The notes below the pieces were generated by a model, which was not told where the DNA came from, did no database searches, and worked only from the letters and a program-made list of their open reading frames with translations. Shown here in pieces: positions 52,954-57,542 of a stretch of 62,430 bases of DNA (positions within the stretch are counted from its first letter, which is position 1; every line of letters starts with the position of its first letter). Source of the stretch: Candidatus Thalassospirochaeta sargassi (GTDB lineage: Bacteria > Spirochaetota > Spirochaetia > UBA9216). A program made the translations under genes and the position numbers. Location of the stretch: the NCBI GenBank assembly GCA_028532855.1, contig JAQQAL010000015.1:1-62430 (forward strand), in the 5' to 3' direction.

Positions 52954-53505
52954 ATGAACAGAGGAAAAAAAATTGTAGTTATTTCACATTGCTATTTGAA
53001 TCAGAACGCCAGAGTTAGACCCTATGCAAACAAGAAGGGGTCTTTCCGGGAGTTGCTGGAACCTTTGATTGAAAATGATTTTGGAATTATTCAACTTCCA
53101 TGCCCGGAAACTACCGGATGCGGACTTAATAGATGGGAGGCTGTTACCGAACAGTATGATAATCCGGGGTTTAGACGCCACAGTAGAAATCTCCTGCAGC
53201 CATATGTCGACCAGTTGATGGAACATCAAAAGGTTGGTGATAAAATATATGCAGTACTTGGAGTCCCTTTTAGTCCTTGTTGCGGGACTCAACACAATCC
53301 ATCAAACCCTGATTGGGGCGGTCCTGTTCTGGATGTAAAAGTTCCGCCTATAGATATCGTTGAAGGTCCTGCTGTTTTTATGCAGGAATTTATGAAGATG
53401 GCCGAAGAGGATGGTGTTAAGCTTGATTTTATGGATGTTTCCGATACCGAAGATATGTTTCCGGAACTTCAACCTGACAAAATATTAGCAAAAATATTAG
53501 ACTAA
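52954..53505 (+). CDS. TudS-related putative desulfidase
   Basis: 183 residues resembling the DUF523/TudS group, in particular the CD3072-like subgroup. TudS uses a 4Fe-4S cluster held by three cysteines to remove sulfur from thiouracil-type compounds. Candidate ligands here are C13 (SHCYLNQNAR), C50 (LPCPETTGCG) and C109 or C110 (SPCCGTQ). The true substrate is unknown. AGAGG precedes the ATG. It has its own sigma-54 promoter and terminator. It shares its upstream control element with the importer downstream, so the two are probably induced together. Confidence 0.82.
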   Translation: MNRGKKIVVISHCYLNQNARVRPYANKKGSFRELLEPLIENDFGIIQLPCPETTGCGLNRWEAVTEQYDNPGFRRHSRNLLQPYVDQLMEHQKVGDKIYAVLGVPFSPCCGTQHNPSNPDWGGPVLDVKVPPIDIVEGPAVFMQEFMKMAEEDGVKLDFMDVSDTEDMFPELQPDKILAKILD

Positions 53506-53805: not shown

Positions 53806-53868
53806 ATTGATATTGTATAAAGTGGCCCGGACTAACCGGATGCTGCAGTTTAAAAACAGGAATAGGTG

Positions 53869-54651
53869 ATGCAACATAATAGTGAGACTGAAATAAAAAT
53901 ACTGGGCCTGTGTGTAGATTTTCCCGATAAAAACAGCGGTGATATCATACATGCATTGACGAATATTGATCTTGAAATCAAAGAGGGGGAATTTGTTTCC
54001 CTGGTCGGGCCCTCCGGATGCGGGAAGACTACACTTTTACGGGCGATTGCTGATCTGCAGGAACCAACATCAGGAATCATATCGGTGAAGGGTATGAGGC
54101 CGCATGAGGTCAGGATTAGGCAGAAGTATGGATTCGTGTTCCAGTCACCGGTGCTGTATGACTGGAGAACCGTGAGACGGAATATCTGCATGCCGATGGA
54201 GGTAATGGGGATTCCGAAAAAGGAGCGCTCAAAACGCATAGATGAAACCCTTGAGATGGTAGGTTTAACTGACTTCGGGAAAAAGTATCCTCATCAGTTA
54301 AGCGGCGGTATGCAGCAGAGGGTAGGGATAGCGAGAGCGCTGGCCTATGAGCCTGAGATTCTGCTTATGGACGAACCCTTCTCAGCTCTTGATGAGTTTA
54401 CAAAAGAAAAACTCCATCTGGATCTGCTGAATATCTGGAAGAAGACTAACAAGACTATATTATTTGTAACGCACAACATCCAGGAGGCGGTGTTCCTTTC
54501 CGACAGGATTGTTGTGCTATCACCTCACCCCGGCAGGGTTTCGGCTGTTGTAGATGTCGATATACCCCGACCGCGCGGCCTTGAGTCAAGAGACGGTGAT
54601 GATTTTAACCACATGGTGTCTAAAGTCCGCCACAGCTTCGAAGGGGTGTAA
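53869..54651 (+). CDS. ABC importer ATPase (SsuB/TauB/ThiZ type)
   Basis: 260 residues. The Walker A is GPSGCGKTT (about 44-52), the Q-loop is VFQSPVLYDWRTV, the signature is LSGGMQQRVGIARAL, the Walker B is ILLMDEPFSALDE, and the switch His is in FVTHNIQEA. This subfamily serves NMT1/THI5- and sulfonate/nitrate-type importers. The start is ATG at 53869 with CAGGA upstream; a GTG immediately before it is possible. It is the first gene of the sigma-54 operon, followed by two permeases and the binding protein. Confidence 0.94.
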   Translation: MQHNSETEIKILGLCVDFPDKNSGDIIHALTNIDLEIKEGEFVSLVGPSGCGKTTLLRAIADLQEPTSGIISVKGMRPHEVRIRQKYGFVFQSPVLYDWRTVRRNICMPMEVMGIPKKERSKRIDETLEMVGLTDFGKKYPHQLSGGMQQRVGIARALAYEPEILLMDEPFSALDEFTKEKLHLDLLNIWKKTNKTILFVTHNIQEAVFLSDRIVVLSPHPGRVSAVVDVDIPRPRGLESRDGDDFNHMVSKVRHSFEGV

Positions 54652-54653
54652 GG

Positions 54654-55463
54654 ATGACTATAAACAGAAAAAAAGCATCTGAGCGACTGGTTACCCTGGT
54701 CTGGGGCCTCGGTCTTATTGGGCTCTGGGAAATCGGGGCGACAGTGGTAGAAAATACCAAGAGATCTCCGCAGAATGTACTGCCGCATCTTTATCAGATT
54801 ATCCAGTCGGTTTTCAGTACTGCTATGGTCAGTAATAAACAGACCGCTTTGCAGATAGTTCTTTCCAATGCCGGGTTAACGCTGTACCGGGCAGGTATCG
54901 GTTTTTTGATTGGTATCGCAGTAGGTTTCCTTCTGGCTCTGCTTATGCAGCGCTTTGTACCGATTGAAAAGATAGCTTTTCCATATTTAATGATGATTCA
55001 GATGATACCTATTCTCGGAATGGCTCCAATAGTTCTTGCGATAACAAAGGATATTGATAAAAGCAGGATTGTCATTGCCGCCATACTTACTTTTTATCCG
55101 GTGGCTACAAACACCCTGGCCGGTTTTAAATCGGTTGAAAAAGAAAAATATGAATTAATGCATTCAATAGCGGCTACAGACAGACAGCTGTATACCAAAC
55201 TCCTCATTCCTGCATGTATACCGTACTTTTTTACAGGGCTTAAGATTTCAGCACCGATGGCCATAACGGCATCGATCCTGGTTGATACACTGCAGGGGGG
55301 CGGCGGCCTGGGATGTATGCTTTCTCAGTCGCTTAAGCACGCTATGTCGATCTATGTTTTCTGGCAGATTGTATTCTTAAGTGCAATAGTCGGAATTTTA
55401 AGTTACCAGCTGATGGCACTGATTGAAAAGATAGTTTCACCTTACGAAAGGGCGGGAGCATAA
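54654..55463 (+). CDS. ABC importer permease 1 (SsuC-like)
   Basis: 269 residues with six membrane helices. The EAA-type coupling loop is in 'YELMHSIAATDRQLYTKLLIPACIPYFFTGLKI', and 'PVATNTLAGF' precedes it. It starts two bases after the ATPase stop. Together with the homologous permease that follows, it probably forms a heterodimeric channel, less usual than the homodimer found in sulfonate importers. Confidence 0.92.
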   Translation: MTINRKKASERLVTLVWGLGLIGLWEIGATVVENTKRSPQNVLPHLYQIIQSVFSTAMVSNKQTALQIVLSNAGLTLYRAGIGFLIGIAVGFLLALLMQRFVPIEKIAFPYLMMIQMIPILGMAPIVLAITKDIDKSRIVIAAILTFYPVATNTLAGFKSVEKEKYELMHSIAATDRQLYTKLLIPACIPYFFTGLKISAPMAITASILVDTLQGGGGLGCMLSQSLKHAMSIYVFWQIVFLSAIVGILSYQLMALIEKIVSPYERAGA

Positions 55464-55464
55464 G

Positions 55465-56274
55465 ATGTCGGATAGAAAAGAATTCAGTTTAAACAAGAAT
55501 ATGATTTCTACAGCTGTTTATCCGATATTTTTCGGCCTGTTTATTCTTCTGTTGTGGGAAACCGAGGCTCTTCATAAGATTATAGATGCAGATACATTCA
55601 CTTTGCCGGTGCCAAGCAGGATAATAGGCATAATTGCAGAGAATCTGCCATCTATTTTAAAGAATACTAAAGCAACCGTGCAGGTGGCGGTTGGAGGGCT
55701 TGTGCTTGGCTCACTTCTGGGATATCTGCTTGCGATGATAGCGACAGCCTTTCCGAAGTGGGGAAAAGGCGGCCTTACTATAGTCTCTGCTTTCAACGCA
55801 GTCCCGGTGATTGCGATAGCGCCGATTATGACTAATCTTACCAAGGATTTCAGCCGGGATCCCAATCTGCGAAGCATGCTGGCTAAAACGCTTGTTGTGA
55901 TGCTGCTTTGTACAGTATCGATGAGTATAAACGCTTTCAGAGGTTTTAACGAATTAAAACCCTTCTCAGAGGACTTGATGAAATCAATTGCCGCAAAACC
56001 TGCGAGCGTTTTCTTCAAGCTCCGTGTTCCGAACAGTGTCCCGTATATTTTTACTGCTCTAAGGGTATCGGTTCCGGGGAGTGTCATTTTTGCGATGGTA
56101 AGCGAGTACTTTGCAGAGTACATCATCGGAGTCGGGCGTCAGATTCGTGAAAATATCGTATTGGCGCAATATGCTACGGCTTGGGCGTATATTGCTGCAG
56201 CCTTTGTGATAGGCGTAACAATGTACATAATTTTGTTAATCTTTGAAAATATTTTGTTGAGAGGAAGGCGATAG
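55465..56274 (+). CDS. ABC importer permease 2 (SsuC-like)
   Basis: 269 residues with six membrane helices. It has the same length as permease 1 but a clearly diverged sequence. The coupling loop is 'SEDLMKSIAAKPASVFFKLRVPNSVPYIFTALRV'-like, and 'NAVPVIAIAPIMTN' marks the family. The start is one base after the permease 1 stop. It is likely the second half of the heterodimeric channel. The binding-protein gene follows after 54 bp with its own strong Shine-Dalgarno. Confidence 0.92.
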   Translation: MSDRKEFSLNKNMISTAVYPIFFGLFILLLWETEALHKIIDADTFTLPVPSRIIGIIAENLPSILKNTKATVQVAVGGLVLGSLLGYLLAMIATAFPKWGKGGLTIVSAFNAVPVIAIAPIMTNLTKDFSRDPNLRSMLAKTLVVMLLCTVSMSINAFRGFNELKPFSEDLMKSIAAKPASVFFKLRVPNSVPYIFTALRVSVPGSVIFAMVSEYFAEYIIGVGRQIRENIVLAQYATAWAYIAAAFVIGVTMYIILLIFENILLRGRR

Positions 56275-56328: not shown

Positions 56329-57426
56329 ATGAACAAGAAAATTTGGTTTAAAACAGCATTCATCTTGATAGTTTTTGCTTTGGCGGTTAGTCCGCTCTTT
56401 GCTTCAGGCTCGCAGGAGGATATGGTAACTACCTACTACGATGCAGATGCTTCAGTGGAGAGTATTGTAGTAGATGCAGCTACAAAGGGTCAGGTCGGAA
56501 ACTGGGGAATCGGAAACGAGTATGAGATCCAGGCTCTGCTGACTAAGTACGGACAGCCTACAACCTACCTTAGCCAGGCATTTGATATGGACGGATTTGA
56601 CGACGATTCAATCCTTCTCGCTTCAGCAATGACGTATAATGAACTAGGTCTTGTTAAGAACAGTTATGACGGTGGTTACGGATATGGTGATACCGTTTCC
56701 TACATCGACATGAATGATGAAGGCGTTGCAATGCTGGAGGATAACATTTTCTGTAACGCTGAGTTTGCGGCTGAGAATCCTGAAACTGTTAAGGCTTTTG
56801 TTTATGCTTCTATGAAGGGCTGGGAATATGCCTGCGCTAATGTGGAAGAGGCTGCCGAGATAGTCTATAACTACGGATCTTCCGTATCAGCAGAGCACCA
56901 GCTGTACATGGCTGGTGAGATTAAAAAGCTGGTAGAAACAGACACTAAGGGTAACACTGTAACAGAGTACGGAAAGATAGACAAAGAAGCAGTTCTTCAG
57001 TCCATGGAACTTGCCAAAACTTATGTCAAACTTGAAGATTCTGTTGCTGCGGAGAATCTGAGTAATCTGACCATTGGTGATCTTGTTGATTCATCGTACT
57101 GGGAAGCAGCAGCGGCTTCAAACGGAGATTTTGATGTTGAGAAATCAGAAATCACTGTTCAGTTGAAATGGCTGCCCCAGGCACAGTTTATGGGATACTA
57201 CGTAGCCCTTGATAAGGGTTATTACGATGAGGTTGGTCTTGATGTAACTGTGGTTCCAGGTGGTGGAGATATCGGTGAAACAACAGCCGTATACACCGGC
57301 CAGGTTGATTTCGGTGTTACCTGGATAGCAAACCTAATGGCAGCAAATGCCGGTGGAATGGATCTAATTGAAGTTGCTCAGGTCTTCCAGAGATCAGGAA
57401 TCGTACTTGTATACAAATTGAATTAG
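56329..57426 (+). CDS. NMT1/THI5-like substrate-binding protein, apparently circularly permuted
   Basis: 365 residues with a clear signal peptide (LFA|SGSQE, about residue 25). Residues 54-258 carry the part that normally follows: 'GNWGIGNEYEIQALL', 'AMTYNELG', 'NDEGVAMLEDNIF', 'ENPETVKAFVYASMKGWEYA' and 'EHQLYMAGEIKKLV'. Residues 275-362 carry what is normally the N terminus: 'ITVQLKWLPQAQFMGYYVAL', 'DKGYYDEVGLDVTVVPGG', 'GQVDFGVTWIANLMAANAG' and 'QVFQRSGIVLVYK'. The order is thus inverted relative to ThiY/RibY-type proteins. The family binds pyrimidine-, flavin- or thiamine-precursor-like compounds. GGAGG precedes the ATG at 56329; an upstream ATG would disrupt the signal peptide. Confidence 0.88.
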   Translation: MNKKIWFKTAFILIVFALAVSPLFASGSQEDMVTTYYDADASVESIVVDAATKGQVGNWGIGNEYEIQALLTKYGQPTTYLSQAFDMDGFDDDSILLASAMTYNELGLVKNSYDGGYGYGDTVSYIDMNDEGVAMLEDNIFCNAEFAAENPETVKAFVYASMKGWEYACANVEEAAEIVYNYGSSVSAEHQLYMAGEIKKLVETDTKGNTVTEYGKIDKEAVLQSMELAKTYVKLEDSVAAENLSNLTIGDLVDSSYWEAAAASNGDFDVEKSEITVQLKWLPQAQFMGYYVALDKGYYDEVGLDVTVVPGGGDIGETTAVYTGQVDFGVTWIANLMAANAGGMDLIEVAQVFQRSGIVLVYKLN

Positions 57427-57434
57427 TTTTAAGA

Positions 57435-57495
57435 GTCACTGAAGTGACACTATGCTTCGTCACAGGCACAGTATTCTTGAATACTGTGCCTGTTT
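57435..57495 (+). terminator. Tandem hairpins after the importer operon
   Basis: GTCAC/GTGAC (57435-57448) is followed by a perfect 14-bp inverted repeat, CAGGCACAGTATTC (57463-57476) with GAATACTGTGCCTG (57479-57492), then TTTA. The long stem should stop transcription or protect the 3' end, although the T-run is short. Confidence 0.65.
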
Positions 57496-57542
57496 AGTCT
57501 GGATTGCTTCAAACCCTGAAAAATCATTCCGCTCAGGACTGA

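Follow-up and report, generated by a model that had tools for sequence, protein, structure and literature searches.

A circularly permuted NMT1/THI5-type substrate-binding protein in a spirochaete, with close relatives in the original order at the same operon position

The gene at 56329..57426 (+ strand) of Candidatus Thalassospirochaeta sargassi contig JAQQAL010000015.1 encodes an NMT1/THI5-type substrate-binding protein (SBP) of 365 amino acids, in which the two conserved blocks of the family stand in reverse order. An earlier note on this DNA read the arrangement as a functional circular permutation; the question is whether it is one, or instead the product of misassembly, decay or the joining of two genes. 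The 62,430 nucleotides analysed are referred to hereafter as the window. A Shine-Dalgarno sequence (GGAGG) precedes the start ATG at 56329, and residues 1–25 (56329..56403, +) read as a Sec-type signal peptide (...LFASGSQE) that has no lipobox Cys and is probably cleaved after FA. There follows block B (residues 47–262; 56467..57114, +), equivalent to the C-terminal two thirds of canonical relatives and beginning directly past the first inter-lobe crossover. A new linker, ASNGDFDV (residues 263–270; 57115..57138, +), connects, by junction alignment, the old C-terminus to the old mature N-terminus, and leads into block A (residues 271–363; 57139..57417, +), the N-terminal third of canonical relatives. 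The coordinates, the open frame and the retention of each motif once are as the earlier note described them, as is the swapped layout, except that block B starts at about residue 47 and not at 54.

The SBP forms one transporter with the products of three genes ahead of it on the + strand, an ABC ATPase (53866..54651) and two BPD_transp_1 permeases (54654..55463 and 55465..56274). Immediately upstream of the transporter lies a gene for a CD3072-family, TudS-related putative desulfidase (52954..53505, +); given a gap of 360 bp, its membership of the SBP transcript is uncertain. A perfect 14-bp hairpin without a strong U tract (57427..57510, +; z -3.6) lies 3' of the SBP stop codon and may mark the end of the transcript or a processing site. 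It was detected by folding and was not flagged by the consensus terminator scan, for which it contains too few T.

The Pfam NMT1 profile (PF09084) matched the window SBP with 93.1 bits against a curated cut-off of 20.5, but positions 2–79 of the profile aligned to residues 285–362, so the match is not collinear from N to C. The start of the profile thus falls at the C-terminus of the SBP, placing the family's N-terminal third (block A) last and block B after the signal peptide. A phmmer comparison with PDB 4nmy gave the same reversal, query residues 273–341 matching chain residues 6–73 and query residues 130–189 matching 186–245. Against the closest canonical protein, from the treponeme-family genome G411 (the family label of G411-type genomes is one that we infer), block A was 74% identical over 88 amino acids (E 6e-45) and block B 52% identical over 212 (E 3e-66). 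Both blocks are therefore homologous to one protein, swapped, in one copy each and in a single frame and, as judged by these E-values, the opposite-order matches lie far above chance.

AlphaFold2 (61 rows) modelled the whole chain with a pLDDT of 93.1 and a pTM of 0.91, predicting one complete fold with confidence rather than the incomplete fold that the earlier note had named as evidence against a permutation. When the model was aligned to known structures by VIA-align, which preserves chain order, residues 10–237 superposed on residues 96–301 of 4nmy (Z 11.3, rmsd 3.6, 198 residues) and residues 9–239 on residues 95–306 of Thi5 (Z 9.9), which identifies block B with the second part of the canonical fold. 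Block A is missing from these alignments, just as a displaced block should be. Among NMT1 structures the VIA-align list contained 4nmy, Thi5, PqqT and a few others, and the absence of the rest is no counter-evidence. Towards the top of the list, OpuAC supplied the matches that ran over nearly the full length (Z about 10, model residues 20–340, rmsd about 5 Å). Modelled alone, block A gave a poor prediction (pLDDT 55), as expected for half a lobe, and it is consequently the full-length model, together with sequence, that places it.

The window genome consists of 53 contigs, which leaves room for an assembly artefact; a gene in decay was considered as well. Relatives were sought in one genome per species over 84,980 species; 134 were found and the best 80 kept. 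At all 80 of these best loci block B precedes block A, once each, in one ORF. The proteins are 60–81% identical and come from Spirochaetota and Bacillota, isolates included; carriers include Anaerocolumna sp. AGMB13025, whose genome is complete, and Ruminococcus bromii isolates. Among 391 sampled genomes of Clostridia, six had the full permuted form and a seventh a partial one interrupted by contig ends. The earlier note had proposed looking for the same order in related spirochaetes: besides other Spirochaetota, one same-genus genome shows it along the entire protein, which is 74% identical to the window SBP, while a second such genome contains the first 252 residues of the SBP and then reaches a contig end. 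Recurrence of the order in the same genus and at all of the best 80 loci excludes the misassembly that the earlier note had named as a refuter, dozens of independent assemblies, complete and isolate genomes among them, being in agreement. Decay is ruled out by the open frame, the Shine-Dalgarno sequence, substitution rates and the high conservation of both halves: mean column identity over 61 mature sequences was 77%, each block contains invariant residues, and dN was 0.16 against a dS of 1.46 in comparison with L026 (dS being saturated or almost so against the others), values by which the gene is judged to be under purifying selection. We consider an artefact or a decaying gene to be next to inconceivable.

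The original order survives close by. In six treponeme-family genomes (G411 and, of 200 genomes of that family, five more: G623, G641, G657, G761 and G764) an unpermuted A-then-B SBP is encoded in the operon of reductive pyrimidine degradation (Pyd) in which, as described below, most permuted relatives are found. In G411 the permuted-family profile matched block A (164 bits) ahead of block B (267 bits), within a complete Pyd operon of ATPase, permease, permease, SBP, PydB, PydA, PydC, PydD and PydE genes. These treponeme canonical SBPs are 63–74% identical to the permuted form in block A and 52–55% in block B. In Alphaproteobacteria, in Deinococcus and on Klebsiella plasmids, annotated preA/hydA operons likewise contain an SBP of canonical order at this position, with the shared gene order ATPase–permease–permease–SBP. 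All of these canonical Pyd SBPs resemble the permuted family in operon position, in their two-permease transporter and in the motifs QLKW..QAQF, G.W..GNE, S(A/T)M.YNE and LED; they differ in having the order A–B, whereas the window SBP has B–A, a new linker and new ends. The earlier note's kinship with ThiY and RibY holds at the Pfam level, but the precise relatives are the binding proteins of Pyd operons.

Several further relatives were observed. On a Klebsiella quasipneumoniae plasmid (L113), an ABC transporter with a canonical SBP lies beside preA, hydA and a Zn hydrolase gene, with IS elements nearby. More distant canonical relatives were present in 4 of the 391 sampled Clostridia genomes, and one clostridial genome (G851; L224, L225) has a permuted Pyd operon together with a separate canonical relative that has its own ATPase and permeases. 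NMT1 domains also occur within far longer ORFs of the spirochaete phylum (588 amino acids in L011 and L014, 530–990 in L158–L169), which are apparently fusions.

In a combined tree, for which the permuted proteins were first rearranged into canonical register, these formed one clade (support 100/100), whose sister group was the treponeme canonical proteins (support for the two together 100/99). Next outward came canonical Clostridia (98/90), then proteobacterial and Deinococcus forms, and a 100/100 branch separated permuted and canonical Pyd SBPs from other NMT1 proteins. Trees of block A only and of block B only agreed with the combined tree. A chimera that took block B from one NMT1 parent and block A from another was weighed, as fused halves of neighbouring paralogues would look alike. 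Such a two-parent origin is disfavoured by the block trees, each of which gives one permuted clade with the same treponeme canonical proteins nearest, and in our estimation it is highly improbable. The simplest account of one permuted clade and agreeing block trees is a single permutation of one gene. Spirochaete sequences fall at at least two places among those of Bacillota, a dispersal that suggests gene transfer between the two phyla.

The junctions indicate how the permutation may have come about. At the fusion junction, the canonical C-terminus ...SYWEEAVK and mature N-terminus DEITIQLKW correspond to SYWEAAAASNGDFDVEKSEITVQLKW. At the opening junction, canonical QRSGLVLVAKKESG...TKVGNW is divided into QRSGIVLVYKLN-stop and SVESIVVDAATKGQVGNW. 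The earlier note had located the new termini at the hinge linker between the QRSG and GNWG strands; the ends do lie in this first crossover, with the linker split rather than lost, YKLN remaining at the C-terminus and SVESIVVDAATKGQ ahead of VGNWG. Junctions of this kind would be expected after a tandem duplication whose copies fused and then lost their outer parts, in line with the route that the earlier note put forward, but no tandem or A–B–A intermediate was found among the listed matches (80 loci, and 391 Clostridia, 247 same-phylum and 200 treponeme-family genomes).

We conclude, with a probability of roughly 0.87, that the family arose by one ancient permutation of a treponeme-type SBP and has remained the two-lobed, pyrimidine-binding component of an importer. 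The order kept in two phyla, purifying selection, a confidently predicted complete fold and the unpermuted sister in the same operon uphold the earlier note's view of a functional permutation. The event would have taken place in one ancestor, after its split from the treponeme-type canonical protein, probably by tandem duplication and subsequent trimming of the outer parts, with loss of the second signal peptide. A short linker would have fused the old C-terminus to the old mature N-terminus, and new ends would have opened within the first inter-lobe crossover, so that the mature protein would begin with lobe 2 and finish with the N-terminal part of lobe 1. Type II binding proteins have two crossovers between their lobes. 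With the new ends within the first of these, lobe 1 should be formed by one uninterrupted segment, and the lobes should keep a single covalent crossover. The permuted SBP would nevertheless adopt the usual two-lobed flytrap, close on its ligand and hand it to the transporter of two permeases and one ATPase, as its unpermuted sisters would. Thirty-seven residues, K280, W281, Q286, F287, W59, N63, E64, N104 and E105 among them, do not vary among the permuted proteins and the canonical ones of treponemes, Proteobacteria and Deinococcus, in keeping with an unchanged binding site. In the permuted form an N-terminal tether joins the hinge side of lobe 2, not lobe 1. Most Bacillota permuted SBPs combine a lipobox with a long Ser/Thr/Glu-rich tether; a lipobox is also present in those of rumen Treponema and missing from the window SBP.

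What the protein binds is suggested by its neighbours, whose enzyme names were assigned from sequence and annotated counterparts. The fetched loci contained, near the permuted SBP gene, a dihydropyrimidinase-like gene (74 loci), a PydA-like gene (68), a class III aminotransferase gene (51), a hydantoinase/carbamoylase-type amidase gene (41) and an iron alcohol dehydrogenase gene (40), as well as genes for PucR-type regulators. By these assignments the gene lies, in most relatives, inside a Pyd operon, with PydA/PydB beside the ATPase–permease–permease set. Uracil or thymine is thus the likely ligand, and probably what the transporter takes up. PucR-type regulators were seen in Bacillota and Deinococcus Pyd operons (L098, L039, L046, L111 and L153), and RutR/TetR-type regulators in proteobacterial ones. 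The same cluster, PydA to PydE, has been discussed for Clostridium chromiireducens, where a transporter is nowhere mentioned (PMC7332683), and searches of the open-licence literature turned up no account of a named Pyd ABC transporter.

In the window genome the transporter genes alone are adjacent. Its homologues of PydA, PydB and PydD (57–58% identity) are scattered over about 55 kb of another contig, C22 (L143, L145). A transporter unlinked to Pyd enzymes and lying beside a TudS-related desulfidase gene might handle a modified pyrimidine, and it is possible, though rather unlikely, that the permutation is real and the SBP functional but its ligand a thiopyrimidine, a dihydropyrimidine, a hydantoin or a thiamine-precursor pyrimidine. 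The solved NMT1 relatives 4nmy, 3ix1 and Thi5 bind thiamine or its pyrimidine precursors. A gene that reads as DUF523-like adjoins the SBP gene of canonical relative L194 (4486–5016), and a TudS homologue lies close to canonical relative L154 (about 1852–2205); together with the window's desulfidase gene, these provide a hint, from gene proximity, of thiopyrimidine uptake. Against these alternatives, the link to Pyd operons is kept across two phyla by permuted and canonical forms alike, and the TudS-like protein of the window had homologues in only one other of the fetched loci. A thiamine salvage context, as for ThiY, was not found: the conserved neighbours are Pyd genes, and no thiamine gene was recognisable among the conserved neighbour clusters of the fetched loci.

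Permuted binding proteins are already known, for type I in TpMglB-2 and by report in OpuAC; for a permuted NMT1/THI5 protein, the open-licence literature searched yielded no description. TpMglB-2 (Tp0684) of Treponema pallidum is a naturally circularly permuted, 'Type Ic' binding protein of an ABC transporter, and its authors proposed tethering as one reason for its permutation (PMC4990184). Like the present family, it spans treponemes and Gram-positive bacteria and has membrane-tethered relatives, but it has a type I, glucose/galactose-binding fold, belongs to another family with another ligand and represents an independent event. For OpuAC of Bacillus subtilis (PDB 2B4L), CPSARST reported a circular permutation relative to other glycine betaine-binding proteins (PMC2395249). 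It is an earlier reported permutant among two-lobed SBPs as well as the best near-full-length order-preserving structural match to the window SBP, from which it differs in its compatible-solute family, its 13–15% identity and an rmsd of about 5 Å. ThiY, Thi5 and 4nmy share the PF09084 family, the fold of block B and the sequence of both blocks with the window SBP, and differ in block order, in binding thiamine or its precursors and in their remote identity. What is added to the earlier note is the setting in Pyd operons, the unpermuted sister, the origin in one event and these precedents.

Natural permutations are usually seen between remote homologues, without close relatives in the ancestral order. 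In the present case the original order is still present in the same operon, which makes it an unusually clean example. We think it fairly probable that the family represents a single-event permutation of a type II SBP that left one covalent crossover, has close relatives in the original order at the same operon position and so provides a before-and-after pair, and serves in a pyrimidine importer of gut bacteria. As the two forms resemble each other closely (identity per block reaching 74% and 55%), share an operon and derive from one event, folding, flytrap dynamics and permease docking would be directly comparable between them. Collinear profile searches detect the permuted SBP merely in halves. 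The permuted form has been retained in many gut bacteria and spirochaetes, and in gut bacteria with the Pyd pathway, such as Ruminococcus bromii, it looks like an entry point for pyrimidines, possibly including fluorouracil.
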